From Leptobrachium leishanense (lineage: Eukaryota > Chordata > Amphibia > Anura > Megophryidae): 64,000 nucleotides of DNA. The position numbers and the translations under genes were made by a program. The stretch covers positions 8,432,001-8,496,000 of the forward strand of contig CM019066.1 in NCBI GenBank assembly GCA_009667805.1, written 5' to 3'. Below, piece by piece: positions 12,105-47,098 of the stretch. Position 1 is the first letter of the stretch. Each line of letters opens with the position of its first letter. The notes beneath the pieces are model-generated. The model searched no databases and was not told where the DNA came from. It saw nothing but the letters and a program-made list of their open reading frames with translations.

Positions 12105-12528
12105 TGTCAGGAACGTGGGGATGGTACCTGGGTGGCACCTGGATGGCAGGGGTATGAGCCCAGGATGCAGTGTCCTGCACTGATAAGCAGGCGGGAAGGG
12201 GTAGGGAGGATGATGTGGAAATAAACTGACCGGATGATTCTCAGAAGGATGATGGTGGAGTTGCAGGAAACAAAATAATAAACAGGAACAGATGGGTATA
12301 GCAGAGCAGCGAGTTAGCAGCACCTCACGCTCTCAGCACAAGAGCTGTAATGAACCAGCCATGTTAATGTGGGCAGAGCCCTTTATTTTGTGTGTCACGT
12401 GTGTTGGTTGTGAGTTAACTGTTGCATTGCTGGATGCTGATAGTGAATGCTGGTTACAGGGCAGGAACAGTACATAGAAGTGTACCACCAGGGGGGGTTC
12501 AGGATGGCTACAGCCAGGGATCCTGACA
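12105..12528 (-). repeat. 3' LTR of E2
   Basis: This 424-bp LTR has TG...CA ends with an 8-bp terminal inverted repeat (TGTCAGGA/TCCTGACA). On the minus strand it contains AATAAA (about 12381-12387). A purine-rich tract (gaagggggagg on the minus strand, about 12532-12543) lies just inside it and is the likely polypurine tract. Confidence 0.88.
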
Positions 12529-12599
12529 GTACCTCCCCCTTCAGGTCACGCTCCGAGTGACCAAGGATGGCAGCAGGACTGCCCATGACCAGGCACGGG

Positions 12600-14246
12600 T
12601 CACTCTAGTGGGTGCTGTTTCCAATAGTCGTAGCACCACTGGAGGGCAGAACGAGGGTCAGGAGTGGTAGTACAGGGTTGGGCACGTGCCTTCCTCTGAC
12701 GCGCCGTGCCTTGGTCTTGGTCTTCTTGTGGATAGCAGATACCTCGGAAGGAGAGTGCCCATGTACCCAGATGGCAGTCTCTCTTCATCGTCTTCAGTCG
12801 CAATGGGTGAAAAGCAATCACGAGATAAAATAAAGTCCACATCAGAGTCTTTAGGGATCCTGGGGTTATGCTCTTTTCTCATAGGTGATGCATCAGGAAT
12901 GAGGGTGCCCACGTAATCGGATGGCACGAAGGTGGGTATAGCATAGATGCCTGCACCGTATAAGGAGCTGGATCCTCAGGTAAGGAATCTGGAGCAACAG
13001 GAATGTCCCTGGAACGTCTGGCGTTGGCGACAGAGGGCAAGAGATAGGAGGTAGAGTCACCCTCGAACCTGGTGCCCACATAGGAAGAAGGCATCAGAGT
13101 AGGCATCTTCTCCATTTCTCCCGGTTCCCCTTCTAAACATGATCCATCACTAAGGGAAGGATAGTCGCACAGCCAGGACTTAATGCCCTCGTCCTCTTCT
13201 TCTTGCTCTTCCCAGCCACAATCCCTTTCTGATACAGATCCATCGCTGGATGAAGAACAGAAGCCTCGCCATGCCTTTATAGGGGTGTCAGACCCCTGGT
13301 GTTGACCTGGGGGTCCCTTGGAGCATCGGGCTGTCTACCTCGGTGGGCTCTCCTCAGAGACAGCGATGTCCTCTGGGTCATATTCAGGCAGGGAAGAAAC
13401 ACAGGAAGACAGCGGCGGATTGTGCTGGCTGGGAGTGATGGGAGTTGTGATCGCCATAAGGGAGTTCTTAATCTTCTGGGCTTTCTTCAGCCTGGCCTTC
13501 ATTACCAGTTTGAAGGGGATCTGTGTCACAGTAGAAACTGGCATGGACATGATCTCCATAGGGGTTGGTAGATCTTTCTCCACAGGTACGGTGGTCTCCA
13601 GATCCATGGGAAGGACAGGTTCTATGGGCACACAGTGTAATCAGTCTCCATAGGCATTACAGGTTCGCATACTCCTCTTCTGAACTGACCTCCAGAGATG
13701 TCACATGCCTGGATACAGCAGGTACAGTTCGTCTGGGGACAGGTGTAGGTGCATGAGTTGTTCGAGTTGCAGGTCTGGGTTCAGGAAATCTCTTGGGGGC
13801 CGGTCTGGCTAGGGGTACCGGCTTAGGAACGGCAGGTCTCATAGAAGCAGGTGTATACACAGTGGCTGTAGCAGGCCTGGAAGCCTGGGACTGCTTCGGA
13901 GATCTACGCACCTGAGCGTGCTTGGAAGTTGCAGCTGGTTTGGAAACCGGTGCTGGTTTGACAAACGCTGATCTGGGTGTTTTTCTGGGCAATTCGATAT
14001 CCAGTGCGATCCTGCCCCGCAGTACAGGCACAAATTACTATTTTGTCTCCTGACACGCTCTTCAGGAGACAGGGGATCATGGTGTTTATTTGGAGGAGCG
14101 CACACCTTAGTTGAGGTGCCCAGAAAAGTTTGCAGCATTTGCATCAGGGTATCAGCCAGGTTCTTGAATAGCTCCTGGAAGGTGGTTTTCAGTAGCTCCA
14201 CCATTAAGTGCAGCACTGCGGGCTCATTAGTATTAGGCTGGTTCAT
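12600..14246 (-). pseudogene. Mini-Gag of E2 (frameshifted)
   Basis: The ATG at 14246 is two bases inside the 5' LTR. The protein starts MNQPNTNEPAVLHLMVE, forms a probable amphipathic helix, then has PLSPEERVRR and a CCHC knuckle CLYCGAGSHWISNC at about 14040-14000. Zinc knuckles bind retroelement RNA. There is no room for a capsid domain. After a frame change near 13970 comes a Pro/Lys/Arg-rich stretch (to 13657), then acidic and Pro-rich segments (13335-13631), and a tail with three copies of a (M/L)PSxYxGT motif (about 13094, 12927 and 12777). Several frame changes are needed to join these parts, so a full product is unlikely. E1 and E3 share the N-terminal design. Confidence 0.75.
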
Positions 14247-14248
14247 TC

Positions 14249-14676
14249 TGTCAGGAACGTGGGGATGGTACCTGGGTGGCACCTGGATGGCAGGGGTATG
14301 AGCCCAGGATGCAGTGTCCTGCACTGATAAGCAGGCGGGAAGGGGTAGGGAGGATGATGTGGAAATAAACTGACCGGATGATTCTCAGAAGGATGATGGT
14401 GGAGTTGCAGGAAACATAAATAATAAACAGGAACAGATGGGTATAGCAGAGCAGCGAGTTAGCAGCACCTCACTCTCTCAGCACAAGAGCTGTAATGAAC
14501 CAGCCATGTTAATTGTGGGGCAGAGCCCTTTATTTTGTGTGTCACGTGTGTTGGTTGTGAGTTAACTGTTGCATTGTTGGATGCTGATAGTGAATGCTGG
14601 TTACAGGGCAGGAACAGTACATAGAAGTGTACCACCAGGGTGGGTTTCAGGATGGCTACAGCCAGGGATCCTGACA
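14249..14676 (-). repeat. 5' LTR of E2
   Basis: This 428-bp LTR is nearly identical to 12105-12528. On the minus strand it is followed at once by GAATG, the start of the mini-Gag frame. Confidence 0.88.
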
Positions 14677-14857
14677 ATCAGTTATTCAAATTTTTCTTTT
14701 ATGATGATGACACAGTGTAAAACTAAATAAATTCATTATATACCGTTTCGTTTAGAATTCGTATCGTATCGATTCGTTATTTGGAAGTACTTCCGAATAC
14801 GAATTATCAAATTTAGTTCCAAATTCTGAATTTTTACGAAACGAATGCACCTCTCTA

Positions 14858-15246
14858 ATCCTCATATAAATTACTGTTTTAAACTGCAGAATATATTGGT
14901 ACTTTATAAATATTTGTAATTGTAACTGTAAATTTTGATAAATGTTTGCAAGCTGCAAAACTGACCTTAAACTATTCCATAAGTTCCATAATGTATCCAA
15001 CTAAAGCAGTGAGTGACCCCAGAGCTCTCCCTGTATTCTGCCCTCTCCCTGACTGTTGTAATGCAGCAGCAAAGTTTGCTCAGCTATTTGATACAGTGAG
15101 GTTGGGGACTGCTCTTTGTAACTTCTTTATAGTATTATAGGGAGACAGGAGTGAGATCTAAGAGAGAATTTAGTTCTACCCACGATGTACACTAATATTG
15201 CAGTAAAATAAAGGGTATTTCTATGTCAAGGAGATTTCTATGACTA
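14858..15246. other. No gene seen
   Basis: AT-rich sequence with no convincing coding region, repeat boundary or structured element. Confidence 0.5.
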
Positions 15247-15429
15247 GCAAGTCTATTCAAAGAAAGGTGAAGATCAGGAGAATTGGCAGGAGAAGAGAAC
15301 AATATAGACCAAATATCCAATTTGGAAAGTGAGATAAATGGGAGCATTTTTCTGGTTTGGCTATTTTGACCTAGAATTTTCACTTCTCCAGTCATTCTCC
15401 TGAGTCTCACCTTTCTTTGAATAGACCTG
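15247..15429. mobile_element. MITE family A copy, diverged ends
   Basis: The palindrome has ends gtctattcaaagaaaggtga and tcacctttctttgaatagac. It preserves the uninterrupted centre gagataaatggga and so gives the empty site for the B insertions at 231-1081. Confidence 0.75.
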
Positions 15430-16011
15430 TACATTTTTGGTAGCGAAAGGGTTAAGGATGTGAAAATTACATTTAAAAAATTAACAGAACTATATTAGAC
15501 AGTTTGATAAGATTTATGATTATAGTTTAGAGCTAACTGGGAATTCAGGAGTGCTAGCAAAAGAAATGAAAATTTTATTCTAAAATAGTTGAAACGGGAA
15601 GAAACTCCAATTTTCTTTTTTTTTTAACTCAGCTATTTTGGACTGAAATTTGCATTTCCCTTTTCAAATCTTCTCTTTTCACAGTCCATGAATTACTTCA
15701 ATGAGTTAGATTGCTGCACAAATTGAACATCAAGATAGCTTATAAGACGTGCAATAGAGTTGTGACATAAATGCTTTTGAATTGTTAAATTTATAAAGTA
15801 ACTTTTTTGCGCCGCTATGTTAGATTTAAGCCTTTTCTGTGCAGGAAATTGTCTTCCACAATGAAACAAAAAACTAAAAATAAATTATATCAAGTTTTCC
15901 TGCAATAAACGTAACACTTTTCATTAAGAATAAAAACTCTATTAGTGATGAGAAAGAGAACGACCATATAGAATCTTTTTAATTAAAAAAGTTCAGAAAA
16001 TCCTAAATTGT
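15430..16011. other. No gene seen; AT-rich
   Basis: No open frame with recognisable content. It begins with agcgaaagggttaa, reminiscent of a G/F-type terminus, but no partner end is visible. Confidence 0.45.
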
Positions 16012-16015
16012 TTAA

Positions 16016-16487
16016 CCCCTTCACTACCAGGTGATTTTTCTAAAAAAAAAATCCTCTGCCAGGAACCAGTGTTTGTTTTTAAATAAATTTTTAATTGTTA
16101 ATACAGTATAAAATATTTGGGAATATTCCCAACTCATTCCTTACTGTAATAACCTAGTTGGCAGGTGGATGGTGCCATCTAATGGCCAAACAGAGTTGCT
16201 GCAGGTAGAACTGCAGCTCCTTGCTCCATGCAGGATCAGCTGGGGAAAGCCCTATAAATCAGGACATTCCTTAGCTGGTTTTAAACAGTTTTAGCTCTTG
16301 AGCGTTATACTCACAGGGATAAAAATTTGGGGGCACCTTCTGCAGCCCAAAAACAAACAAAATTGGTTTTCAACATATGATTTTATTTACAATCATTCAG
16401 CACAGCCCCAGATAATGTTATCACGATCCCGGACTACTGAGCCTGCTACTACTGAATGTGTATACATGATCACGGGAGTGAAGGGGT
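16016..16487. mobile_element. TTAA-type MITE family F, copy 1
   Basis: Begins after TTAA (16012-16015) with CCCCTTCACTACCAGGTGA and ends gggagtgaagggg next to ttcaa, so the second TTAA is mutated. It matches 41766-42242 in inverted orientation, sharing the gcagcccaaaaacaaa and caccatct(a)-type segments. No coding region. Confidence 0.6.
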
Positions 16488-16685
16488 TCAATTCTATCGA
16501 GGCAGTATGATGTCATTGTAATAATGCATAATGATTGGTTAAAATGAAGACTGTTGTTTACAAGAAAACTTGGCATTCTCACATGACTTAAGTATAATAG
16601 ATTAAAAACCTTTTTGTTGAAACCAGTCCATTCATTTTACTGATCTTCTATAACGTTCAATGTTGACGTCACAGGAACAGTCTGA

Positions 16686-16945
16686 CAGGGTTATTCAAAG
16701 AGAGCTGGACTGGCCCCGAAATTTCCCCATATAGTAGAGGTGTGCAGGGCTGGTAAATTTGTTTCAAATCAATTTCATTTTCATTATTTTGTTTCGTAAT
16801 TTTGGATCACTAAAAACCCAATCGTAAGTCAAGATCGATTCGATAGTTGGTTGATATTGATTTGAATTTTAGATCACTAAATAAAACCCCAATTTATCAA
16901 ATCCTGCTGTTAAAAGACAAGAGCGGGTTAAATGTTGAGCTGTCC
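16686..16945. mobile_element. D-family terminus followed by E-family fragment
   Basis: 16686-16734 is a D terminus (CAGGGTTATTCAAAGAGAG) matching the inverted end at 33016. From 16735 (tagaggtgtgcaggg) the sequence matches the E hAT MITE, including gatcactaaataaaacccc. Both are truncated. Confidence 0.55.
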
Positions 16946-17492
16946 ATTGGACTGTGGTGCTGATCAAAAGGAAGTACAGCAGCATTGAGCTCCGTGCTGG
17001 ACCAGCTGAGGAAGTGTGTTTTAGACACATAACCCACTGATGAAAGAGTGTTAGCAGCTTGGATGTGATGCCCGTGGTGCTAAAACTTTAGGAGAATGTG
17101 GAACCCAACTGTAAGGATTTTTTTGTACAACAAACTAAATTCCTTTGCATCTCTCCAGTATTACATCATAACCATTGTACTTGGTATGGGAAAACTGACA
17201 GCTGCCTTGCAGATCAAGTATAGACGAACTTAGTAGTAAAGAGGTTAAATCTTAACAACATATTTCTTCTCGGTCTCCCTTCTTCTCTTCCAAAAGGACA
17301 GTGTCACAGTATTGAAGTCCCCCTCATTGCATAGGGCAGGCATATGGAATGCATTCCTGCTGTGGAATTGTACTGTAAAACAAAGTAACTAATGAATCAG
17401 CTGATTTTCTCTTAGTAGATACTAACCACAGTGCCACTCAAACCTCAGACCCACGGGAAACTGAGCTCTTTCAAAGTTGTACTTAAATATAT
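16946..17492. other. No gene seen
   Basis: No conserved coding region or repeat boundary recognised in this stretch. Confidence 0.45.
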
Positions 17493-17739
17493 ACCCACGG
17501 CAGGGACAAGCAGTGAGGTCAGTGGCTGGTGAGGCATTGGCTAGTATCAGAGCCAGATATACACAGATAGTAACTAACTTTCTGCGGTTTGTGTTTCGCT
17601 GTAAATTATCTTATACTCATTTACTGTACCCACACATATTATATACCATGTTTCACGTTATTAAATGGACTTTCTAAAGATATCATTATTTTCATCATAA
17701 CATATACTTCACTATTAAAAAAAAAAAAATATGATAGAT

Positions 17740-17870
17740 ATTCTGTATCTGCCACTAGAGGGAGCAGAGGGATCTGCCTGGGCATGTCATACTCTGTATC
17801 TGCCACTAGAGAAAGCAGAGGGAGCTGCCTGGGCCTGTCATACTCTGTATTCGCTACTAGAGGGAGCTGC
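17740..17870 (+). repeat. Tandem 51-bp repeat with CTCF-like core
   Basis: Three copies of a 51-bp unit each carry a form of CCACTAGAGGGAGCAG, starting at 17752, 17803 and 17854; the later copies are mutated. The core resembles the CTCF consensus CCASYAGRKGGC with one mismatch. Confidence 0.65.
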
Positions 17871-18624: not shown

Positions 18625-18662
18625 TTAATGGCCTACCCTGACAGCATGTTCCTTAACCACGG

Positions 18663-21832: not shown

Positions 21833-22844
21833 TACAGTGGCAAGAAAAAGTATGTGAACCTGTCAGGATCGCCACGCTCTGGCCCCTGTCACTCACGCTA
21901 ACCCTGCACCATGAACAATGCACCTTCCTGAAACCTCCTGAACAGTGGTGACTCTAGGAATAATATTTAGGGGGGCACATAGGATACTGCACTCAAAACT
22001 GGGGGGGGGCACTAATAATTTTCACCGCTAAATCATATCACTGAATAAAACGAAGGGCCCTGTCACCTGTATGAGCTAAAACACCATCACTAAAGGAAAA
22101 ATTTAGTGCGAGTCGTTAAAACTTAGTGCCTGACGACCTAACAGATCACCTTGTCTGCCGTAGTCCATGAACAAGGTCATTTGGCACACGCTAGGGAAAC
22201 TAATGCGGCTGTGTACAGAATAGAACTGTTTTTTTCCCCAGTGCAGAATGCCGGGCCATACCTATCCCCCACCCTGACAAGCTTGAATATGGACACATCC
22301 AGTGAATAACCTCTCACCCCTGCATTATTAAAATCCTCCACAGTGTTCGTATCATCCATATTTTGCTGCACACGTATATTAAGGCTGATGGGCATTGCAT
22401 GATAAATGCCACCCAGCAGCAGCATGTAGAATCATTACACTGCATTTAATAGATCCAAAAGGAAGGCCAGGTGAGCGACACAAATTTCCCTGCTGCAGCA
22501 TATAAAGAATACATGTTTCAGGGCAAGACTTATTCATGTGTCCCTTTAAACATTGTCCACACAGTCACCCAGGGGCGGACTGGGCCGGGGGGCAGGGTGG
22601 CAAATGCCCCACCGGTTTTCAGCCGCTGCGTTTTCTCTTTGAGACCAGCCGGCTGCTACACACAACACACAGCCAGCCGATCTCATAATCAGGAAGAGGA
22701 GGCTGCGAGCCCAGCAGCTCACGTGGGGCCATGCTGGTCCCGCCCCTTCCTCCTCCACAACCACCGTGTGATGTGTCCAGCACGTGCAGGCAGGGGGAGA
22801 GAGAAAGCCCAGCCCGGAGACAGACTATGGCAAGTATGTAACAG

Positions 22845-22990
22845 GTGTGTGTGTGTGTGTGTGGTGTGTGAGCAGAGGGAGGTATGTGTGTGAATGCAGG
22901 GGGTGGTGTATTTTGTGTGTGTGTGTGTGTTTGAGAGCAGGGGGCTCTGTGTGTTTGAGAGCAGGGATGGGTGTGTGGGTGTGTTCACAC
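22845..22990 (+). repeat. GT-rich micro/minisatellite
   Basis: Runs of GT alternate with tgagagcaggg-type words. A related block lies at 23895-24055 (unit about gtgtgtgtgtgagagcaggg). Short frames here are low-complexity artefacts. Confidence 0.8.
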
Positions 22991-23455
22991 ACAGCATCCT
23001 CTGTCAAACCAGCAAATGCCATTAAGATCCATCATTAGCTAATGTGGCTGAATGCATGGGGGAGGGGGGTGCTGTGCCAGAGGCTGGCTGAGGGTGATTT
23101 GAGGTACTGGCCACAGATGGCACCTCTTGTCCAGGGATCCAAACACCTCCACAACTGGATTAAGACACCCTGGGGTCCAAGACAGGTACAACAACACTGT
23201 ACCTACAATATTGTGCGCACACAGTACTCAATACTGTAAACACAATACGCAATACACATCTGCCTGGCAATTTGTAATACACAATACGCAAACTCCAAAA
23301 CATTATACTGCACACATGACATATTTGTATGGTACCCCCAGCTGGGGCACCCAAAGACAGCTGCCTGAGTTGCCATAGAGACTTTCTGGCCAAGCAGGCC
23401 CCTGAAAGATACATGGACCCTAGGCCAGTGATGGTGGACATTGGTACTCCAGCAA

Positions 23456-23600
23456 TATTATACTTTATTTATATAGCGCCAGCACATTCTGCAGCTCTGA
23501 ACAATGGGCACACTATAAACAGGGTTACAATACATACAGACTGAATAACATTTGATAAACCAGTACAAGAGGAAACGAGAAGCATCATGGGACATGTAGT
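23456..23600 (+). repeat. Dispersed 'tatagcgcc' repeat copy
   Basis: Contains tttatatagcgccagcacat, then caatgggcac and the block gataaaccagtacaagaggaaa. It matches 39646-39790 and, in its first part, 43866-43930. The family is common in frog genomes; its class is not resolved here. Confidence 0.6.
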
Positions 23601-23894
23601 TTCAAAACGGGTGCCGAGGTTCATCATCACTGAACTAGTTGGTCTTTCCAGGATGAAGCCTCAAGTACATTGTATTATCATATCCACCTACACAGCATAA
23701 GAGGAACACTTAGGGGATTATCCACTAAATGCTGTTATTGCAGTACCGAGAAACGCCAATGCTTCTCAAAATTAATAAAGCAAAAGGACGTGCTTTACTG
23801 TGCACATTCTCCTCTATGCCATTTAGTTTTCAGAAGCGGCAGCGTTTCTCTGCACTGCAATACCGGTGATTTTAGACGTTTTTTGAAATGTATG

Positions 23895-24055
23895 GCTGTG
23901 TGTGTGTGTGAGAGCAGGGGGTGTGTGTGTGTGAGAGCAGGGGTGTGTGTGTGAGCAGGGCTGTGTGTGTGAGCAGGGCTGTGTGTGTGTTTGAGAGCAG
24001 GAGACTGTTTGCGTGTTTGAGAGCAGGGGTAGTTTGTGTGTGTTTGAGAGCAGTG
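23895..24055 (+). repeat. GT-rich minisatellite
   Basis: About seven variable units of GT run plus gagagcagggg or gagcaggg, ending before the inverted repeat at 24056. Confidence 0.75.
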
Positions 24056-24160
24056 CACATTACTGTGAGTTTTGTTGTTGTGGAGCTCTGTGATACTGTC
24101 ATACACACTGCACATTACTGTATCACAGAGCTCCACAGCAATAAAACTCACAGTAATGTA
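24056..24160. repeat. Inverted repeat (hairpin) in hAT-J
   Basis: Arms of about 40 bp (about 24056-24098 and 24118-24158) pair across tactgtgagtttt...gctctgtgatac, with a loop of about 20 bp. A partial further copy of one arm lies near 24530. Confidence 0.7.
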
Positions 24161-27100
24161 CAGTGTGTATAAGTGTGAGTTTTATTGCTACCTACCTGGT
24201 GTGTAGGGGATATATGGCTGGCTTGGCTCCCTTGCCCTGCATCCAAAGGGCTGGTATAGCTCCTAGAATCGCCACGGTATCTGCTGCCTGCACTCCACAA
24301 AGTAAGAATGACAGCAAGCGTCTTGGCAGCATCGTACAGGTACGAAACTAAATATTTGTGCAGGGCAGCAAGAGGTTAAAGGGGCACTCAAATGTTACCC
24401 TCTTTTCCCCCTTTAACCTATTTGCTGCTGACGACGTGCTGAGCGCATCCTCTGGTTTCAGGTTTGTGTGCAGAGGATGTACTTGGCACGTCGTTGAAGT
24501 GATGTTGTACGCTCAAACACACCGCACATTACACTATCACAGAGCTGCACAGCAGTAAGAAGTATATGCGTGCATAACAACTCACCAGAATAATAAATGT
24601 CACTTTAATGTTTTTGTAGGAGTGGGGGGCCTTTAACTGCATGTCCTGTCACCATGCAGGGATGTCCCAAAAGCTCACAATCAAGCAAGCCCCTGCTTTA
24701 CCCGGGGGGGGGGGTAGCACAGAGGGTGCAGGGCCCCTCTCCCCTATAGAGTTGCTGCACCACGGGCCTACGGCTTGTGCCTGCCCCCTGGGCCAAAAGT
24801 TGCCGGTCAGCCCCTGCAGTCACCCTAATAATCACCCGCTTCCATACTATGAATAACCCCCAGCATAAAATGTTTAAAATTAGGCAATATATTACAATTA
24901 GGATATATGTGGATAAAGGATACATTTATAATAGAGTCTAATGCAACAGCAACGACATTGCTGACCAGATCCATCACTATGGTGTATGGGGCCAAGAGAA
25001 CACCTGTGCTGCATTCCTTTCAATTGCCTGTTAATTTTGGGCGAGAATCTGTTTTTTCTGTCTTTTTGGAGTTAGCACCAGGGTTGAGCAGTAGGTAAAA
25101 TATTGCAATTAGCGCCCCTCAAAAAATTAGCGCTGGCACCAAGTGATCTCTAGCGCTCCCCATGTTAAGTAAAGGACGCAGAAAGTACAGTAAGGTCGCG
25201 GTACAAATCGCTAATAGCAACGCGCTATGTGATTTTTCCCGTTTGTAGCGGGAGGCAAACGATCTGTTGGTCAGACGCTAGACTCAATTAACCTGGCGCT
25301 AACGCAAAATCAATGCCGACGCAAGGGTTAGCTCACACCAGGTAATAGTGCCCTAAATAAATATATATAAATAATATTGCAAAACCCCAGAGTAATGTTA
25401 TGCTATGAGTATTGTGACGCAATGATGCCTTTTTATTGTACTAACCTGATACTTAAATTCAATATTTTATTTGCCACAATTCGGCAGTTTTCGTTGAATG
25501 TCTGATAGCTGCTTCAGCGACTCCACTTTTAGCAAATTACAGTGACCATTCACTAAATAGGGAATTCACCTTATTTTCGGCGAAATAAATTCCCCGAAAC
25601 GTGACGAAAAGCAGAGCATCTAAAAATGAATAGACCCTTTAGATTCTAACTTCCATAATAATCCCTAAAATGCCATAAACCCAGGGAAATACAATAAAAT
25701 GAATAAACAATGTGGCATTTAGCCTACCCCTTAACCCTTAATATGCAAATGATCAAGGGAAAACATGAAATAAATACACTGCGACATGTAGCCAAACCCA
25801 TTAACCCCTAAAATGCCATTAATCAAGGAAAAAATAAAATGTATACTGTGAGGGATGAAGCCTATCCATTAACCCTTAATATACAACTAAACCAAGGCAA
25901 AAAATAACGTAATACACAATGTAATGTATAGTCTGAACATTAACCACTTCACTGCTGAACCATTTCAAACCTATGAAAATGTTTACATTTAAGTGCACGT
26001 TTCTATTTAATGTTTTATGACTTTTACTTTACACCAAATATGGTCATGTTGGGTATCATTGGAAAGGCCAGAATCTGCCCTTTCCTTTCCAATGACACAT
26101 AGAAGGTCCATATACGATTCACGGGAACGGAGATATTGCGGTCCGAAAAGTATTGGAAGCTGGATGCTGATTTTTGGTGGGGGGGGGGGCACATGGGGGG
26201 GGCAAGGAATAACCTAGGGGGGGCAATTGCCCCCCCTTGCCCCCCTGTAGAGACGCCTATGCTCCTGAATACACCAGCATCCTAGCCCTAGAACCTCACC
26301 TGACCGCACCTTCCCCTGATTATCCCACTATATCAGGAAGCTACGCCCTCCAGTATTCACTTCCACATTGAAGTTCCTGACTGCGATACCTATCTGCCAA
26401 AGCTCCCTGAAACCTCCTGACAATCTCCTGAATTCTCTACCAAAGACTCCAAGGACCCTCTGTTATTATCTGGACTTTCATCGCTTCCATATACCGGTAC
26501 CCTCCCATCCTGCTCCCCCTCTGCCCCCCATCTAAGACTCCCCGTGTACCAGACCCCTTGCTGAACCCTGACCACTCTATTGCCTGTTCCTTGTCTGATT
26601 CTATGCTACCGTGTTTATTTACAATAAACACCCTTTGTTATCCTGAACCTGCCTCCATCACTGCATCCAGGGCTCACAACCCCATCCTGCTACACCACCC
26701 ACAGTCTACACGTGACAGAATGTGGAAGTCCAAATCCTGTGAGCCCGCAGTGATCTATGCTATGGTGGAAAACGTGAAAGATGCCTTTCTAAAGATCCAG
26801 CAGTATCTGGACTCCCTGCTTGATTTATATGCAGCAAAACCCAAGGGGCACCTCATCTAAGGTGCGCGTTCCTGCTACAGAGGGAGCCAGAGGACCGCTG
26901 ACCCCAGAAGAAAAGGCAAGGAGGAGGGCGCTAGACCTCTGCTTCTACTGCGGGGGTCCCTTGCATCAAATATCGGCCTGCCCACTGCGCCCACCTAAGC
27001 CAGGTACAAAATGTTTTCCTACACCTGTTCCTGTAAAGCCTGTTTGTACCAAGCCTGCACCTGTCAAAACCATAAGGTTGGTGGTGAAACCAGTACCCAC

Positions 27101-28120
27101 CCAGCCAAAAATAGCTGCACCAACTGTCAAGCCCACAAAATCTTCGTTGGGGAAGCCGGTGACTGCCCTGCAAAAAACGACTTCAACCACTGTCAAGCAA
27201 AAAAAGCAAGCACCCAAAGAAAAACCCCTATCCCAGCCTTCTCCCAGAAGAAGCCTGGTAATCAAACCTCCTGCACCAAAGCGTGTCCCTGCTCCCAGGA
27301 AACCTGAGCCAAGAGCTACCAGACTCTCTGCACCAGGTTACCCAAGAAGCTTCTTCTGAGGGGTCAGACCAGGAGACCCCTATGGAGTGCGCCGAACTGG
27401 AGTCTGACCCTGAAGCGCCCATGGAGCAGGAATCTATAGACGCTGAGCCAGCCATGCCAATGGAGATCGAGCCTAGCCAACACATCATGGCTGGTGTTAC
27501 CAGAGATCCCGAACCCAGCCCGCTACCTCCATGCTGCACATATGCCTCAAATGGGACTGTCGTTCGCAGGGAGGACCTGGAGGTCTTCGAACTAGCCCTG
27601 AGACTTCGGGAAGCCGCTCCTCATGGGCATACAGTGCCACCTTCACATGTCCTTCTGATGACTCTGAGTCAGAAGAGGAAGCCGCTGATGCTGGTCTGGA
27701 CCTTTCCAGACAGACTGCACGCCGCACCCAGGGACCCCCAGGTCAGCATGGGGGGTATGTTGGCGTTGTGGGATCCGTTTGTCGCCCGGCTGGAATGACT
27801 CACCGTACCACTGTACCCTGCTATTTCCTGGAGACGGACTACAATTCCTTCAGTGGCTCCTCTGGTGAATCAGACCTTGAAGGGGAGCCAAGCGAGAATT
27901 GCCCCTCCATAAGTCCAGCCACCTATCTGTGCCTTTCAGTGGCCAACTACAGAACTCCAGCTACCAAAACCATCTCGAGTGCACCATGCCAGAGATCTGC
28001 CTTCATTGGTGCCCTCTTCTCCATGACACCCACAGTTGTTCGGTTGCCTATGAAACCGAAACCTCAGGAGCTGGAGGCTCACCCATGCCTCATTGAATTG
28101 GAGGTTGAGCAAAAGCCTGA

Positions 28121-28494
28121 GGTCTCTGCCCCGCATCCCGCAGGATCTCGAGAGGTCGCTGCCCCGCATCCCGCAGGATCTCGAGAGGTCGCTGCCCCGC
28201 ATCCCACAGGATCTCGAGAGGTCGCTGCCCCGCATCCCGCAGGATCTCCAGAGGTCGCTGCCCCGCATCCAGCAGGATCTCCAGAGGTCGCTGCCTCGCA
28301 TCCAGCAGGATCTCCAAAGGTCGCTGCCCCACATCCAGCAGGATCTCCAGAGGTCGCTGCCCCGCATCCAGCAGGATCTCCAGAGGTCACTGCCCCGCAT
28401 TAAGCAGGATCTCCAGAGGTCGCTGCCTTGCATCCCGCAGGATCTCCCGATGTCGCTGCCCTGCATCCCGCAGGATCTCCCGATGTCGCTGCCC
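28121..28494 (+). repeat. 33-bp tandem repeat in E1
   Basis: About 11 units of a 33-bp sequence containing gctgccccgcatcc and caggatct. Since 33 is divisible by three, several frames stay open on both strands. Confidence 0.85.
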
Positions 28495-28569
28495 TGCAAC
28501 CACATGATCTCCTGAGCTGTCGCCGCGACGGGGCCATCGCCGCCGCCGTAAGGCCAAGCCACTCACTGC

Positions 28570-29010
28570 CCAGCAAGAGCCGTACAGTACCCAGGTCGCT
28601 CAAGTGCCGTGCTGTACCCAGGTTGCCGCTGAGCCGTGCAGTACCCAGGTCGCTCAAGTGCCGTGCAGTACCCAGGTCGCTCAAGTGCCATGCAGTACCC
28701 AGGTCGCTCAAGTGCCGTGCCTCACCAAGGTTGCCACCGTTGAGCTGTGCTGTACCCAGGTCGCCGCTGAGCCATGCAGTACCAAGGGCCTCGCCAAGGG
28801 CGCTGCCCCTCCGTGCCTCGCCAAGGGCACTGCCCCTCTGTGCCTCGCCAAGGGCACTGCCCCTTCGTGCCTCGCCAAGGGCGCTGCCCCTCCGTGCCTC
28901 ACCAAGGACGCTGCCCCTTCGTGCCTCGCCAAGGACGCCACTGTTGAGCCATGCAGTGCCAAGGTTGTCACCAAGGGCGCTGCCCCATCGCATCTCGCCA
29001 AGGGCGCTGC
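28570..29010 (+). repeat. 27-bp tandem repeats in E1
   Basis: Two arrays follow each other: units with cagtacccaggtcgctcaag to about 28790, then units with ctcgccaagggcgctgcccc to about 29010. Both units are 27 bp. Confidence 0.8.
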
Positions 29011-29474
29011 CCCACCGTGCCCAGCTGTTGCCGTGGAAACCGCCATCTCCACTACCCATTGTTGGCAGTTTCCAGCTATAGCCGCGCTGAGGAGGGTTTG
29101 GGGGTTTGCCAAAGTTGACTCTCCCATCCCTCACAGCCGCAAGTTTGGGCTTGTTTCTGGTCAACCAAGCCAAGAAACTGCACATATTGGCACCACTGTC
29201 GCTACCCCAGAAGGCACCATCCGTATGGGACCCTTGCCTCCGGGGTTCATATATGCCTCGAATGGGACTGTAATCAGGTGCGTGGACCTCTGAGTGTTCC
29301 CAGACATTCAAAGTGCCCGAAGATCACTCCTCGAGGACAGTGTTTTGCCAAGCTCTATCAACCACTCACTAGAAGATCAGGATCCCTACACGGTACAGTG
29401 ACTCCTTATGGACCCTCCTACTGCCCGTCGGTTGGCTGTAGCCGTCCGGGGGTCGACTCTTAAGGGGGGACTAG

Positions 29475-30003
29475 TGTCAGGATTGCCACGCTCTGGCCCC
29501 TGTCACTCACGCTAACCCTGCACCATGAACAATGCACCTTCCTGAAACCTCCTGAATACACCAGCATCCTAGCCCTAGAACCTCACCTGACCGCACCTTC
29601 CCCTGATTATCCCACTATATCAGGAAGCTACGCCCTCCAGTATTCACTTCCACATTGAAGTTCCTGACTGCGATACCTATCTGCCAAAGCTCCCTGAAAC
29701 CTCCTGACAATCTCCTGAATTCTCTACCAAAGACTCCAAGGACCCTCTGTTATTATCTGGACTTTCATCGCTTCCATATACCGGTACCCTCCCATCCTGC
29801 TCCCCCTCTGCCCCCATCTAAGACTCCCCATGTACCAGACCCCTTGCTGAACCCTGACCACTCTATTGCCTGTTCCTTGTCTGATTCTATGCTACCGTGT
29901 TTATTTACAATAAACACCCTTTGTTATCCTGAACCTGCCTCCATCACTGCATGCTGGGCTCACAACCCCATCCTGCTACACCACCCGCAGTCTACACGTG
30001 ACA
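29475..30003 (+). repeat. 3' LTR of E1
   Basis: Complete 529-bp LTR, TGTCAGGATT...ACGTGACA. A polypurine tract, aagggggga (29462-29470), is four bases upstream. AATAAA occurs at about 29909. Confidence 0.9.
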
Positions 30004-30200
30004 GAACCCTTTGGGATTACGTGGAGTTTTGCATGAATTGGTCATAAAATGTGCTCTGATCTTCATCTAAGTTACAACAATTTGAAAAACAGTCTGCTTA
30101 AAATAATACAACACAAACATTATATGTTTTCATGTTTTTATTGAACAGAACATGTAAACATTCACAGTGCAGGGTGGAAAAAGTATGTGAACCTTTGGAC

Positions 30201-31195
<995 letters not shown>

Positions 31196-31390
31196 GGTTC
31201 ACATCAGGCAGTGCTTCTTGAAACCAGTAAATCCCAAACTGGCGTGTGTTTTTAAAGGGCAGGACAGCTTTCAGCAACACATCCAATAATATCACACTGA
31301 TTGGACTCAAGATTGGCTCACTCCTGGCTCCAATTAGCTCTTGGAGAAGTCATTAGGCTAGGGGTTCACATACTTTTTCTTTCCACTGTA

Positions 31391-31658
31391 TATATCTGCT
31401 GATTTCAAAAAAGACAGACTGCAGGCTGCAGCTGACCTCCACTTTAATTACATTAACAGATGATGCATTAAAATATGCACCAACAATAAACAAATGGAAA
31501 AAGATACCAAGTTGCTTGAAGTTATTGCACTTACTATCATATCGAAAGCTTAACATCTTTAGTCTCTCAGGATGTGATCCTTATTTTCTGGGAGGACTAA
31601 TCAAATCACAGAAAACACTTCATGGTGGGGTGGAGGTGTGTACTTGAATAAAAGCTTA
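31391..31658. other. No gene seen
   Basis: Short AT-rich stretch between Tc1 copy a and a D element; nothing recognised. Confidence 0.5.
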
Positions 31659-33016
31659 CAGGGTTACTAAAAGAGTACCGGAATGTCACCGACACTGCTG
31701 CTCTCCCATTCCCCACACTTCGGCTAGTCCAATACACCGACTAGGGATGTGCATGGCTGAAAAATTTGTTTAGTTTACTTTAGTTTCGTTACATTTTTAA
31801 ATCATTTCATTTTTGGCATTTCGTAACTTATTTCGTTTCGTATTTTGTTTTGTTTCGAATTTCATACTTCAATTTGATATAAAGTTGATATCACTTCGAA
31901 TTTTGGATCACTAAATAAAACCCCAATTAATCAAATTTTGCTGTTAAAAGAAAAGCTAGGGTTAAATTTTAAGCTGTGTCACAGATTTAGTATTTGAGTC
32001 AAATTATAAGTGAAACAAAATTAATTGGTTTCATAAAGTCCTTTGCTGACTATTACCTGTATTTTAAGTTAAGATCAATTTGATAGTTCATTTCAAATTT
32101 AATAGTTGATATCAGGTATTCAAGTTTTTATTTTATGATGATGACACAGTGTAAAACAAAAATAAATTTGTTATATACCGTTTCGAATTCGTAGCGATTC
32201 GTTATTCGGAAGTACTTCCGAATACGAATTATCAAATTTCGTTCCAAATTCCGAATTTTTCCAAAATGAATGCACATCTCTAACACCTACCCCCTCGGTG
32301 AATTCAGCATTCACTGCGGGGTCCCCAAAGTGCAGGGAACAAACCGCTGAACACATCCGAAAAACTGCCACAAACCCGCCGAATGTATCTGACAATCTGC
32401 AGAATCGATCCAATAAAAGTCGACGATCTGCCGAATGGATAAAAAATAAACACTGCAACTTTTAAAAGGTGTTTGCAAAAAAATTATTGCACGAAAATGC
32501 CTGGAAATAATATATAAGGTCCTTTGAATAATAATAAAAAGGTCTGGTACAAAAAAACACCGCCATTTAAAAAATATATATAGCGGAAAAAGAAAATTTG
32601 CCGGAGAAAAATCCTGAAAAATGCCTAAAAAAATAAGTAAATAAAGACACTGTTTGCTGCAAGTAAAAAGAATAAACAGTTTAATAAATAATAATAACTG
32701 GAATGTTTTATACATTGAAACCTATGGGATTCACCTAATTTAAACCTTGATTAAACCTGTCGAATGAAACCACTGAAAATCAGGGCATTTCGCTGACATA
32801 TCTCTGCTTTTCGGTATTCCCTGAATAGATTAACCATTGCTTCTCTATGGGGAGTTCACTGCCGTCAAAGATCCCCGTATTTAGCTGGCAATTCGCCAAT
32901 ATTTGGCGAACTGCCATCTTTTTGAGTAGCCGAATGGCCTCGAATTTGCACTGTTCGGGGAAATTCGCCATTCGGTGCAATTTCGGGGCCAGTTCGGCTC
33001 TCTTTGAATAACCCTG
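31659..33016. mobile_element. MITE family D copy with nested hAT MITE E
   Basis: Left end cagggttactaaaagag and right end ctctttgaataaccctg define a D element of about 820 bp once the E element at 31742-32282 is removed. The interior matches 11125-11498 inverted and parts of 49790-50536. It contains ttcgccaa and gaattcgcc-type repeats. Confidence 0.65.
31742..32282. mobile_element. hAT MITE family E, complete copy
   Basis: This 541-bp element starts TAGGGATGTGCATGG and ends ATGCACATCTCTA. The flanking octamers ACACCGAC (31734-31741) and ACACCTAC (32283-32290) match at seven of eight positions. It serves as the empty-site reference for LTR element E2. Confidence 0.82.
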
Positions 33017-41761: not shown

Positions 41762-41765
41762 TTAA

Positions 41766-42242
41766 AAAAAAAATATCATATTTCGGTTTATTTTCTTGGG
41801 TCGCTCTTCTTAAGATATTTTGGGTTTCAAAAGGTACGATCTGGTGCCCTGATGTCAAGATATCTCGATGTGCTGGTCTACAGCCCACCAGCAAATGAAA
41901 TTTGTTTGCTGCAAATAAATTTTTTTTTGCTCTTGGGCTTCAGAAGGTGCCCCCAAAGTTTTAGCCCTGTGGGCATAATGCCCAAAGAGTTAAAACTGTG
42001 AAAAATCTGCAAAAATGAATGTCGGATATAGGCATTCAGCAAGCTGATACATTGTAGCAGTGAAACACTCACTGCAACTGTAACTCAAATTGGCACCATC
42101 TACTTGCCAAATATGTTTAGTAAAAAAAAAATCATTGGGAGAATTTTTAAATATTTCCTTCAGTATAATTAAAAATGATTCTTGAAAAAACCACTGGTTT
42201 CTGACAATGGTTATTTGGAAAAATCACTTGGTATTGAAGGGG
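41766..42242 (-). mobile_element. TTAA-type MITE family F, copy 2
   Basis: It matches 16016-16487 in inverted orientation and abuts G3 across one TTAA. It ends ggtattgaagggg before TTAA at 42243-42246. Confidence 0.6.
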
Positions 42243-42246
42243 TTAA

Positions 42247-42808
42247 TCCCAATACATAAATTCTGTAAATTTGACTTAATTAGTAAAATGTGTCTATGTT
42301 GATGTTTTTACTATTATCTTTTAATTTCTCTTAAACTATTTTGTATACTTTTTTTTCCTGGAGTTTATAGAACATCTAGTTTCAAAAAGCCAATTTATAT
42401 TTAGGCAATAACCGTTGACAATTAATGGGAAATGCCACGAGGCATCGTGTGTATTTCAATAAGTAGCAATTAGGATCACAACTATGCTTCAACATCGTAA
42501 CAATAAAGAATGGCCAACATAAAACGTAATCCAGATTGTTCTATGTATACGGTAGGTGTTGATTTATATTACCCTTACACCAACAACATATTTACCTTCC
42601 CTGCAAATTGTAAACAATCTAGTAAACCTATTGACATTAGAATGCAGAAAAATGTATGATACATTTTCACAATACAGAATTTATTTATTTATAAAGCATT
42701 TTTACAAGGAAGGATACATTGAGATTTCTCTCGTTTTCAAGTATGTCCTGGGTTCAAAAACATTGAATTGTTACATTTGTAATTGAATACATTTTTAATT
42801 ATGTACTT
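42247..42808. other. No gene seen
   Basis: AT-rich stretch without recognised content. Confidence 0.5.
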
Positions 42809-42812
42809 TTAA

Positions 42813-43239
42813 GGCTAGGGTCAGACGAACGCATTTTTCACGTCGTCCGTGAAAAAGTTCGGTCGAACGAACGTACGTATTTTCCCCCGGAATACGCGAT
42901 AGCGGTCATACGATGCGCCTTTTCGTCCGTGATTTTGTACGGATAATCAATAAAACACTTTTTGAGTCTGGACGTTATGTTAGCCGGACATGAGCAGCGT
43001 CTGACGTCTCCTAATCACACACACACGCCGCTATGCGGCCGCAGCGCACTCTGTACGTCAGTAGTAGCGGTTTGACGTTCTCGAAAAAATGCGTTCGTTG
43101 GCCACTTGCGTTGCGCGGACGAACTTTCGTGCGGCCGTTCGTCGTATGTTCCCCGGCATTGGACGTCATTTGCTGCTAGTACGGCCGTGATTTCGTGCGG
43201 CTAAACGCACGTTAAAACTGCGCTAGTCTGACCCTAGCC
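42813..43239. mobile_element. MITE family B, copy 5
   Basis: 427 bp with intact ends GGCTAGGGTCAGACGAACGC and CTGACCCTAGCC. Here the flanks are TTAA on both sides (42809-42812 and 43240-43243), compatible with either a 3-bp or a 4-bp duplication. Confidence 0.83.
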
Positions 43240-43243
43240 TTAA

Positions 43244-43865
43244 AAGCAAACCAAAAAAATACATTATTTTTTTTAATGCAGTCCTAAATAGTTTACTGAA
43301 CACGCACAATCTTTATAATAAAGTATATTTTATTTATATGGATATAACATTGAAAGTCATGTTTCAGGGCAATCCATTACTCTTGGGGAACCTTTCTTTA
43401 AAATGATAATCTACTTTTTTTTCAGCCATAAATCTATATTTAAAGTGGCAGCTAACAATAAAATGAATTTATAAATATTTGCACTTACTACACGAAACTA
43501 ATACAATCTTTACATTGCGTCAGGCTGGAAATGATCTACTTTTAATCATGCGCCCGGTGCTCCATTCCTCTTAACACCTCCTTAGCTTCCTATATTTTGT
43601 TATTGTCAGTATTTCTCATGCGATGTAGCTCGCATTGTGAAATGTTGTTTGGTTAGATTGTGTGTGACTTTTATTATGCGACATAATAAGGCTGCGAACC
43701 AAGTCCATGTGCAGTGACTGTAATGATATAACTCACAGTAAACACAGCTAAATTGGATAAAAGCAAATTGACTGCACAGAAAATATTAGGCATGAGCTTG
43801 TCTTAGAGTCATTTCAGGCTTTGACTCCGACTGCAAAAAAATGTACGTTAACTACATGGACCTTG
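43244..43865. other. No gene seen
   Basis: AT-rich stretch without recognised content. Confidence 0.5.
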
Positions 43866-44110
43866 TATTTTTTTTATTATTGTCATCATTTATATAGCGC
43901 CAACAGTTTCCGCAGCGCTTTACAATAACCAAAGGGAACAAGATACAGATAAACGGACATATGATGGAAATACTAGGTGTAGAGTGTCCTGCTCATAGGA
44001 GCTTACAGTCTAGAGGGATTGGGGTTGAGGAAGACAAGAGGAATTTTACTGGACGGCAGGATCATTAGTGCCAGTGGTTTGGGAACGGTGGGGCCATAGA
44101 AGCGGCTTCA
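43866..44110 (+). repeat. Dispersed 'tatagcgcc' repeat, longer copy
   Basis: Contains atttatatagcgccaacagt, ttccgcagcgctttacaata and ctcataggagcttacagtct. The last block is the probable seed of the minisatellite at 47085-47460. Confidence 0.6.
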
Positions 44111-44155
44111 ATCATGTGTGAGTAGGTGAGCAGAGGAATGAGTTGCATCAATGAT

Positions 44156-44995
44156 TATCACGGTGGCCCCCCTCAGGAGCCAAAGGGGGGACCTTGCTGT
44201 GTGTTTTCATATTAAGCCCTTTAGGCCGGTATGTGTTTCTCTGCATTATGCTGAACCCTGGACACAATAATAGAGAGTATACAGCCACAAGAGGAATAGC
44301 CCAGAGTACAGGGTGAGAAACATACAAAATGAAATGACACACGATGAACAATCAGGGGTTAAACAGACATGACATGAACAACGGTGCAAATTAGAAAGAG
44401 ATCCTTGATGTGGTCTCTATAACAATAAGTAGCTGTACTAGATACACAGACCACAGAACACAACACCAGACTAGACAGGAATATAGTCTGCAACCTGCAG
44501 GGGAGGACTTAACTAGAAACTGAGATATTGCTGCAACCAGCAAAAACCACTGGATGCCTTGTGGTTATGTCTAACAGAGACTGTAATGTGGTACAAATAT
44601 ATACCAGAACCTGAAGACCACACTTACAAAAGACAAATGGGATTAAGCAAGAGAATTGTCAATATACAAGGCCAGGAGTCTTAAACCAGAAATATCAATA
44701 TGCGGCACCAAGGGGTTAGAAACAAGGATGGTCAGGATACGTAGCCAGAAGTCAAGAATCCAGGAGATCAAAAATACAATATAACACAAGCAGGAACACA
44801 GCAAAGAGAACCTTATACTGGATCAAGGAACTGTAGCACTAAAGGCCATATAAATAGGGCAGTACAGATCATGTGACCACAGGTCTAATTAGGCACATAG
44901 ACTCCAGAGGTGGAGAGCAAGAACAGTTTAACCCTGTAAACCAGGAAGATGAAAAAGCTCTCAGCACCAGGGGGCCTGGCTGGGGGAACGTAACA
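44156..44995 (-). repeat. 3' LTR of E3
   Basis: This 840-bp segment begins TGTTACGTTCCCCCAG on the minus strand and ends ...GGGGGGCCACCGTGATA. The matching 5' remnant ends CCACCATGACA. Confidence 0.7.
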
Positions 44996-45087
44996 GTATC
45001 CCCCCGTCACAAGGGTGACTCCCGGCACCCACGAACAACAAAAAACAAGCCTCCCCCCCCTCACAATCGTCACACGCTCACTCGGAG

Positions 45088-47012
45088 TCAGAATCCCCCA
45101 TCATCCCCCTCCAGATATTGGGGTGTCTCTGGAGCACAGCCAAGTGTGCCTCGCAAACCAAGATTCCAGAAGGCGTTCGTGCATATCCCTTGGGAACAAT
45201 CCTTTTCACCAGTCAGACAACTAGAATCCTGGATCTCCTCATAAATGGAACAGAGTATAGTCTCATCAGGTACAGAGCTGAGCATGGCGTCCTCGGACCT
45301 AGTGGGGAGCGTGGCATCCTCGGACCCAACTAGACTAGAGTTGGGCACTCTGTTACGTCTCCTCCTAGACCGAGACTTGGCAGACATAACCTTACCGCAA
45401 GACATGACACCGGTGGAGGCACCAAACTGATCCATATGTGCCTCATTACTGAGTAGGACTTCAGTGGACCCACTGTGGGGCATGGGCATAGTAGTCTCAA
45501 GACTAGAGACTGTAGGTACAGCTGCCTCGCAGCTCGACATGGGAGACACCTTGACAGGATCAGGTACATCAGACCTTTTGTTACTAGAACTCCTGACTGG
45601 CCTCCCGTCAGGTTCGGACATGACAACTGGCTTCCCACCAGGAACGGACATTACCACTGGCACCGCACCAGATTCGGGCATGACAGCTGGCACCACGCCA
45701 GGAGCGGACATTGCTGACACACAGCTTGACTCGGGTACTTTGCCAGGATCGGGCATCACTGGCACTGCTGACACACAACTTGACTCAGGTACTGTGCCAG
45801 GATCGGGCATTACTGGCACTGCTGACACACAGCTTGACTTGGGTACTGTGCCAGGATCGGGCATCACTGGCACTGCTGACACACAGCTTGACTGGGTTTT
45901 GACTGGAAGCTTGCCAGCAACGGGCATGAGGATCTCGGCATCCCTGCAGCTCAGGACAGTCGGCACCGCGACAGGATTAGGCAGCACCGCTGGCAGTGCG
46001 CCAGGTTTAGGTAGCACCGCGCCAGGTTTAGGTAGCACCGCTGGCATTGCGCCAGGTTCAGATATCATGGGTGGCACGTAGCCCGCAAACAGACATGAAA
46101 GCTTCACTGTCGGACAAAGGCAACATAGTTTCGCCACTGGGCATAGATATCACGGTCTCGCCGCTTGGCACTAGGAGTGCGGTGGGTGGTACAGAAAGGC
46201 GGACAGCACCGCAGGTAATACAGCCTGTATGTATACGTCGCCCTGGACCACAATTTGGGTGTCTGGCCATTTGGCGAGGCCACATACGAGAAGCCATAAC
46301 GGGAGTGACCTCCATGGCTTCGTCCTCTGATCCCATGGCTGAGTAGGAGTCATACTCCATGTACTCCTCGGGATCAGAAGGGGAAAACTCGGCTGAGTCT
46401 GAGGTGTCAGTTTCCCCCCTCCACAGACCTGGTTACCCCTAGAAGGGCTCTCCTAGGCCTGGACGGTAAAGGGGGTCTGCCCTTAGAAACATATCGGGGC
46501 CTGGTGCCATCCGACCCAGAACGGGGCCTAGCACCATCTGACCCATAGTCAGAAAACTCAGCAGAAATATCATCAGTTGCCCCCTTCTCAGGCCTGGTTG
46601 CCCTAGGATGGGCTCTCCTAGACCAGGATGGTACAGGGGGGTCTGATATTCTTAGATACATGACGAGACCTGTCCTTGGTGACCTGACTGTGGGACGTAG
46701 GCACAGCAGGCACCTTGCCAGTCTCAGCACGCAATGGCTGCTTGCCAGTCTCGGCGCGCACTTGCTTAATGGGGCACCAGGAAATAAAATGTGACGAACT
46801 GGCACAATAAAAACAGAGCTTGCCAGTTCGCCTTCTATTCATTTCCTCAGGGGAAAGCGGACCAGGAACCCTGCTTTCTAGAACATGCTCACCAGCAGTG
46901 AGAGGAAACACTGTGTCCATTAACCCCTTCCACTGAGACAGAAAATCAAACAAGTGCAGCATAGACTCTAACAAAGAATACATACCAGCAGGCTCGGGGG
47001 GATCCAGTATAA
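45088..47012 (-). pseudogene. Mini-Gag of E3 with tandem-repeat tail (frameshifted)
   Basis: The frame entering from the LTR gives ILDPPEPAGMYSLLESMLHL, a probable helix, then PGPLSPEEMNRRR and a CCHC knuckle CFYCASSSHFISWC (about 46830-46785). This matches the order and spacing in E1 and E2. Frame changes follow near 46750, 46400 and 46100. The last frame (45088-46137) has Pro/Val-rich sequence with four near-identical repeats of about 19 residues (SSCVSAVPVMPDPGTVP type, about 45710-45890), then a basic patch RSRRRRNR and an acidic end. No capsid, protease or polymerase motif is present. Confidence 0.72.
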
Positions 47013-47070
47013 TGTCATGGTGGCCCCCCTCAGGAGCCAAAGGGGGGACCTTGCTGTGTGTTTTCATATT

Positions 47071-47098
47071 ATTGTTATAGAGACCACATCAAGGATCT
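47071..47098. repeat. Inverted LTR scrap of E3
   Basis: These 28 bases are the reverse complement of 44400-44427 inside the 3' LTR. They directly follow the truncated 5' LTR, so the loss of that LTR involved an inversion or template switch. Confidence 0.75.

Follow-up and report, generated by a model that had tools for sequence, protein, structure and literature searches.

The capsid is normally taken to be an indispensable part of Gag, and the question raised by a 64-kb stretch of the Leptobrachium leishanense genome (G000:C4:8432001-8496000, hereafter the window; host genome 3.54 Gb) is what becomes of a long terminal repeat (LTR) retrotransposon that carries the remainder of Gag alone. The window holds three such elements, E1, E2 and E3, whose boundaries we drew by comparing the window with itself. 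Judged by their sequences, they are members of three related non-autonomous LTR retrotransposon families with a capsid-free mini-Gag. The explanation that we hold to be probable is that these families are of the Tf1/sushi type, and that a selected mini-Gag acts, also in trans, as an adaptor that selects RNA into helper particles.

A Gag with a knuckle and no detected capsid

The product is laid out as a predicted N-terminal helix, a zinc knuckle and a long tail that is first basic and then acidic. When the window is translated in all six frames, the knuckle pattern C..C....H....C occurs exactly three times, once per element, against a mean of 0.23 and a maximum of 2 in 30 block shuffles, and its first cysteine lies 74 (E1), 72 (E2) and 65 (E3) codons after the LTR. 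An earlier note on this DNA had proposed an architecture common to the three elements and an alignable sequence next to the knuckle. The second claim holds for every pair, with protein similarity scores of 113 for E2-E3 (shuffle maximum 46), 117 for the E1 knuckle piece and E2 (maximum 44) and 105 for the E1 knuckle piece and E3 (maximum 46); the first holds with one exception, since the E1 helix scores 50 against E2 (shuffle maximum 37) and a non-significant 39 against E3 (maximum 42). All three proteins share an EPA start, and the motif GTS(S/T)KV, likewise pointed out in that note, is indeed common to E1 and E2. E1 and E2 can be recognized as homologues in their DNA as well (60% over 257 bp that start at the LTR edge and take in the knuckle), whereas E3 resembles them at the protein level only; the outcome that the note had named as fatal to a common family, internal regions that are not homologous, did not occur. 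For the tails, protein comparison of E1 and E2 pieces in wrong frames gave nothing, and the similarity of the two rests on the DNA comparison.

That there is no room for a capsid, a protease or a polymerase had been claimed from inspection, and profile searches bear it out. E1-E3 have 42 sense frames of at least 40 residues, and in the 41 that were scanned Pfam detects neither a capsid nor a protease, reverse transcriptase or integrase (the frame left out is 28771-28944; frame 46410-46838, among those scanned, was run at E 0.01 instead of 1). The positive control L004, a Gag encoded elsewhere in this genome, does match Retrotrans_gag (7.8e-12), DUF4939 and Ty3_capsid. Weak matches below the curated cut-offs fall mostly on a repeat array and the knuckle region: in E2 they are PF14787 (0.0005), zf-CCHC_2 (0.0066), SLFN (0.019) and eIF3g (0.028), and in E3 a Lin-28A-like knuckle (0.0026). 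A search of the PDB returned generic knuckles and, weakly, MED14. An AlphaFold model built from two sequences predicts a long helix at residues 9-43, a short helix and the knuckle (predicted local distance difference test, pLDDT, 64), and the heptad register common to the three helices is reached by none of 5000 shuffles.

Self-priming and the anatomy of the three insertions

The LTRs suggest where these elements belong. In each one, the stretch next to the LTR can pair without mismatch with one site, and no other, in the element's own LTR, and this site begins at offset 171 every time: 11 nt in E1 (primer-binding site 26719..26729, plus strand; self-primer site 26359-26369), 12 nt in E2 (14236..14247 and 14494-14505, minus strand) and 12 nt in E3 (47001..47012 and 44813-44824, minus strand), with the self-primer sites about 30 bp behind a TATA-like sequence. 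Two copies from elsewhere in the genome, L021 and L027, have the same arrangement (11 nt at offset 172 and 10 nt at 178). A published criterion for a self-primer (PMC6317226) asks for 10 bp or more of complementarity that begins 0-5 bp beyond the LTR, and complementarity of this kind is found in all five elements tested (E1, E2, E3, L021 and L027); PMC10085805 and PMC6317226 describe self-priming as a common feature of the Tf1/sushi group. Control windows in the internal regions reach at most 9 nt in E1 and 10 in E2, and in E3 one reached 12, that control starting inside the primer site. Shuffled LTRs attain the observed length in 14 (E1), 0 (E2) and 1 (E3) of 5000 trials, the E3 boundaries used there being a few bases off the final ones. 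A tRNA-primed start was dropped by eye, the self-primer being longer and identically placed; Rfam and tRNA scans of the window returned nothing.

The U3 regions of E1, E2 and E3 cannot be aligned and their gapless identity is not above chance (p 0.10-0.20), and therefore the priming geometry is kept while the sequence is not. The description of the elements as separate insertions with different LTRs is accordingly right for the sequences, but the elements agree in the length of U3, in where the TATA lies, in their terminal motifs and in how they are primed. The Sushi LTR end motifs TGTYANR/CNTNACA, as given in PMC3601003, fit both ends of E1 and E2; in E3 the LTR start and the end of the 5' remnant fit them, and the 3' copy ends in GTGATA instead. 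Target-site duplications (TSDs) of 5 bp flank three copies, GAACC at E1, ATCAG at E2 and CATGG at L021/L026, a copy that spans two adjoining sampled stretches. In four of the five elements read at the LTR edge (E1, E2, L021 and L027) the primer-binding site contains an ATG; the E3 site has ATA, and an in-frame ATG lies upstream, in the end of the E3 LTR. Taken together, E1-E3 look self-primed and Tf1/sushi-like in sequence.

For E2, the span 12105-14676 given in the earlier note stands. On the minus strand it runs from a 5' LTR of 428 bp (14249..14676) through the primer-binding site into the mini-Gag (13842..14246; helix, linker and CCHC knuckle at 13989-14030; 135 residues from ATG to stop in the window copy) and a tail in several frames (12603..14034; basic/Pro-rich, acidic and C-terminal parts), and it closes with a polypurine tract (12529..12541) and a 3' LTR of 424 bp (12105..12528). 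Its internal region measures 1720 bp, the TSD lies at 12100-12104 and 14677-14681, and an empty site is found in a paralogous repeat at 31765-32283.

The span 21861-30003 proposed for E1 has the right ends but includes a 4.3-kb insert, and the element itself is much shorter. On the plus strand, its 5' LTR is split into a left part (21861..21942, 81 of 82 bases identical to 29475-29556) and a right part with the self-primer site (26262..26717; 26262-26720 is 98.9% identical to 29549-30006 over 459 columns, with 4 substitutions in 447). The unrelated insert between them (21943..26261) is marked by an 8-bp duplication common to both LTR pieces relative to the 3' LTR; we take it to be hAT-like from its TSD length and ends, and the list of open frames holds none of at least 150 residues in it. 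The mini-Gag is in two pieces, a helix piece (26720..26857) in frame with the ATG of the primer-binding site and broken ahead of the knuckle, and a knuckle piece with the basic/Pro-rich tail (26793..27356; CCHC 26940-26981). The acidic tail with arrays of 33-bp and 27-bp repeats (27262..29290, several frames), a polypurine tract (29462..29474) and a 3' LTR of 529 bp (29475..30003) follow. The internal region measures 2757 bp, and the TSD lies at 21856-21860 and 30004-30008. E1 is inserted in a Tc1-like copy of which an uninterrupted (empty) twin lies at 47541; both E1 (21833-31392) and L021/L026 (L026 after 1208) are in or beside Tc1-like transposon DNA. E1 and E2 are, to judge by their LTR pairs, fairly recent insertions, because substitutions number only 5 in 529 and 5 in 424.

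E3, also on the minus strand, is without most of its 5' LTR, a loss that qualifies the boundaries first given for it: just the last 59 bp survive (47013..47071), and its TSD is unreadable for that reason. The mini-Gag core is an open frame of 156 residues (46621..47088) with the helix and a CCHC knuckle (46774-46815); the tail (45091..46452, several frames) comprises an acidic part and 54-bp/30-bp repeats, and a polypurine tract (44996..45005) precedes the 3' LTR of 840 bp (44156..44995). At the truncated 5' end sits an inverted 30-bp piece of the element's own LTR interior, 47069-47098 being the complement of 44399-44428, possibly a product of aberrant repair or snap-back.

Relatives in the genome, broken frames and selection

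Copies with the same core abound beyond the window. Genome searches scored the best 150 matches each, out of 16,132 candidates for the E2 core, 13,648 for the E3 core, 802 for the E1 helix and 15,962 for capsid-bearing relatives; such matches favour helix-to-knuckle alignments by construction, and they show the presence of many capsid-free copies, not the absence of capsid-bearing ones, nor do they give copy numbers. The question put by the earlier note, whether many copies share the core, is answered positively among these best matches. Each of the 150 for E2 is capsid-free and covers both helix and knuckle: the alignments start at residue 1 and end at 89-93 of 93, identity is 90-100%, 6 contain an internal stop, and in 77 the open frame is 450 residues or longer. 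The 150 for E3 have identities of 71-100%; nearly every one covers residues 7-93, and 149 span helix and knuckle without a capsid (one, 1-78, ends inside the knuckle); 4 have an internal stop, and frames reach 1071 residues. Many of the E2 and E3 matches lie in frames of 500-1000 residues. Of the 150 matches to the 46-residue helix piece of E1, 12 reach 85% identity or higher, the others lie at 70-83%, and the longest frame has 2452 residues. Among 16 spread 10-kb stretches of the genome, one holds a mini-Gag copy (L021) and one (L015) a knuckle preceded by EPMQVG, as in L004; four sampled stretches adjoining the window have neither a mini-Gag copy nor an EPMQVG-type knuckle.

Uninterrupted copies, which the note had also proposed to look for, exist in each family. 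L021/L026 measures 2352 bp and has both LTRs, with 9 substitutions in 415 between them, and its mini-Gag frame is free of stops from the primer-site ATG through 241 codons in L021 and 240 in L026, about 482 residues across the boundary. L027, a sister of E3, has LTRs that are 99.6% identical over 522 bp and a frame of 1071 residues in which Pfam recognizes no family. L028, of E1 type, joins helix and knuckle in one frame of 2452 residues, mostly 33-bp repeat and with one knuckle, in which a by-eye reading without a Pfam scan saw no pol. Long frames of up to 2452 residues had been suspected of hiding pol, and the two examined, in L027 and L028, are repeat expansions. These expansions (L028:1279-7740 and L027:1996-4400) keep the frames open; their repeats differ by family and in both follow the knuckle and the basic/acidic part.

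The ratio of nonsynonymous to synonymous substitution rates (dN/dS) of the core, taken for one pair per family, is well below 1: 0.26 for E2-L021 (95% interval 0.13-0.47), 0.31 for E3-L027 (0.15-0.61) and 0.21 for E1-L028 (0.08-0.44), and every bootstrap replicate of all three pairs stays below 1. Between E2 and E3, differences at the three codon positions number 36/31/59 in 75 codons, third positions changing most, in a protein alignment that favours this result. On these comparisons, the lineages from which the families are replenished appear to have retained the mini-Gag, despite the spread of some subfamilies that lacked it. The low ratios without a capsid in three families would also suit transposition that needs no capsid at all, with the mini-Gag forming a working, condensate-like ribonucleoprotein out of helix oligomer, knuckle and disordered tail and borrowing only reverse transcriptase and integrase, and the long repeat-rich tail found in all families and the common heptad register of the helices would fit it too. 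We nevertheless regard it as unlikely, given that capsid-bearing relatives able to supply particles are present in the same genome: the best 150 matches to them all align at 62-100% identity, many with stops and some in frames of up to 1658 residues. Pfam found nothing in three small L004 pieces that resemble protease or reverse transcriptase by eye.

The reading frames themselves make the picture less simple, as all three window copies are broken, E1 by a frame change between helix and knuckle, E2 and E3 after the knuckle. Several observations weigh against the explanation of a selected, RNA-selecting mini-Gag, beginning with the relatives of these broken copies. The 11 of the best 150 matches (E1 included) in which the E1 helix piece is matched up to the final residue, across the break, lie in frames of just 38-142 residues; the 12 (E2 included) that reach residue 93 of E2 have frames of 162-242 residues, and frames of at least 450 residues occur in none of these 12 as against 77 of the other 138 (p 0.0001). 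Going by this pattern, the breaks of E1 and E2 were probably inherited, and broken copies multiplied with the help of proteins made elsewhere; a programmed frameshift is the alternative reading of the common breaks. Because the broken E1 and E2 subfamilies seem to have spread, an intact mini-Gag would be unneeded in cis. Further, the AlphaFold model is weak (two sequences, pLDDT 64), the heptad pattern of the E2 helix taken singly is not significant (931 of 5000 shuffles), and the best register of E3 by itself differs from that of E1 and E2. The best predicted leader fold of E1 is without the duplex of primer and primer-binding site, which costs about 6 kcal/mol when forced, and the predicted E2 fold has it with a pair probability of only about 0.38. 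When E1 and E2 are aligned as DNA, with no protein guide, the codon contrast is weak (34/27/38, p 0.02), and low dN/dS over some 80-90 codons could partly reflect constraint at the RNA level. Lastly, the N-terminus of L004, the single capsid-bearing Gag read, bears by eye no obvious resemblance to the mini-Gag helix, and a helper with the same N-terminus or LTR did not turn up, the genome search by LTR having yielded no answer. Nor was the second outcome named in the note observed, descent of each element by internal deletion from a different one with capsid and pol; it may yet be the case, given that capsid-bearing elements of broadly this kind are present.

The same breaks, in all three window copies and seemingly shared by E1 and E2 relatives that spread while broken, together with U3 regions that do not align, could be read as the mark of passive deletion derivatives, that is, elements that lost the capsid once or several times, whose leftover coding sequence is unneeded and which simply ride on helpers. 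This passive reading appears quite unlikely to us when set beside the similar spacing from helix to knuckle (65-74 codons), the EPA start and heptad register in common, dN/dS well below 1 with no bootstrap value reaching it in three pairs, and the open frames of at least 450 residues in 77 of the best 150 E2-type matches.

A further comparison bears on how the families acquired their LTRs. Identity between E2 and L021 (L021:8857-9900) is 90-100% in the LTR and in roughly the opening 50 nt of the internal region, and about 72-83% thereafter, a drop near the primer-binding site as expected of recombination between RNAs packaged together; one mini-Gag lineage could therefore come to have several LTRs. 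Neighbouring E2-type cores on the same strand lie about 1.9-2.3 kb apart at G000:C2:306798895-306803714, C4:89737168-89739328 and C5:304891342-304893534, a spacing that suggests tandem arrays of elements with common LTRs. Outside the genome, a protein database search with the E2 core produced three candidates and none at E 0.01, a weak negative in that only proteins of limited length were considered, though frog proteins were included. Scans of viral contigs with E2 and E3 gave no match, and a DNA-pattern scan of viral contigs gave nothing; two E1 matches there (L001 and L002) were judged to be chance, with no knuckle in either.

The remainder of the window contains other repeats. On the minus strand, 56993-59222 is a Ty3/gypsy pol fragment in which the integrase C-terminus is encoded before the reverse transcriptase, an order that we take to be Gmr1-like. 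Pfam recognizes RVT_1, RNase H, Integrase_p58_C and a near-threshold SH3_Tf2-1 in it; its best database match has 88% identity across 85% of the query, and close ones include proteins of Leptobrachium leishanense, Xenopus tropicalis and Ranitomeya imitator. At 4418-6976 a BED zinc finger (Pfam 4.8e-10) lies ahead of another long frame that Pfam does not recognize, presumably a hAT-type transposase, and 60927-61984 is a large minisatellite with a 21-bp unit and open frames on both strands.

A possible mechanism and its relation to known systems

Under the explanation that we favour, a family transcript would start from the TATA box of the LTR and prime its own reverse transcription, while relatives in this genome that carry a capsid would supply the reverse transcriptase, the integrase and probably the capsid shell. 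The knuckle would bind the family transcript, the helix would oligomerise or dock onto helper Gag, the complex of mini-Gag and RNA would be carried into helper particles, and integration would be carried out by the borrowed enzymes. Since E1- and E2-type subfamilies seem to have multiplied with a broken frame, the mini-Gag must be able to act in trans, and it may be retained for the help that it gives to RNAs of its own family. Primer pairing would hide the ATG in the primer-binding site and could thereby sort translated from copied RNAs, other start codons being possible. A truncated Gag with a possibly oligomerising helix and a knuckle is also the form that one would expect of a dominant-negative partner, and the mini-Gag might then be an interference or decoy factor that competes with or poisons helper Gag, and not a packaging adaptor; a pure poison would cut the spread of its own element, and we hold this to be very unlikely, although the sequences would suit decoy and adaptor alike. 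Bolder still, and improbable in our estimation, is the view that a vertebrate lineage has for good done without the capsid while the rest of Gag stayed under selection, that it spreads as a capsid-free mini-Gag ribonucleoprotein for which borrowed reverse transcriptase and integrase suffice, with the ATG in the primer site as a switch from translation to reverse transcription, and that frame-less copies are carried by the mini-Gag of others.

Capsid-less families that keep knuckle and helix, apparently under selection, would disentangle by a natural experiment two roles of Gag, the selection of RNA and the building of the shell, and would make testable what a packaging adaptor needs. The literature searched covers plant TR-GAG elements and self-priming, but no account of gag-only LTR elements that are capsid-free, or that belong to vertebrates, came to light in it, Repbase and most subscription journals being outside the search.

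Among known systems, E1-E3 resemble the Tf1/sushi elements (Tf1 and sushi-ichi, chromoviral Ty3/gypsy) in the self-primer formed by the LTR, the LTR terminal motifs and the polypurine tract, and sushi Gag carries a CCHC knuckle as they do; they differ in having no detected capsid, protease, reverse transcriptase or integrase, and in the long repeat-rich tail after the knuckle. With the capsid-bearing Gag of L004 they share a knuckle of the same pattern and the EE..RR before it, but none of its Retrotrans_gag, DUF4939 and Ty3_capsid matches. TRIM and LARD elements (terminal-repeat retrotransposons in miniature and large retrotransposon derivatives), which PMC5818461 describes as without coding regions, are likewise non-autonomous LTR elements; unlike them, the families of E1-E3 include many copies whose open frames run to hundreds of residues, and have a core dN/dS of 0.21-0.31. 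The closest parallel in content may be TR-GAG, plant LTR elements that, as summarized in the same paper (PMC5818461), keep gag without pol: E1-E3 similarly have LTRs (E3 without most of the 5' one), a primer site and a polypurine tract, and no pol was found in them. They depart from TR-GAG in that the capsid part of Gag is missing too, the host is a vertebrate and the elements are self-primed, so that the mini-Gag families would be a vertebrate counterpart, with a smaller protein, of the plant gag-only elements.

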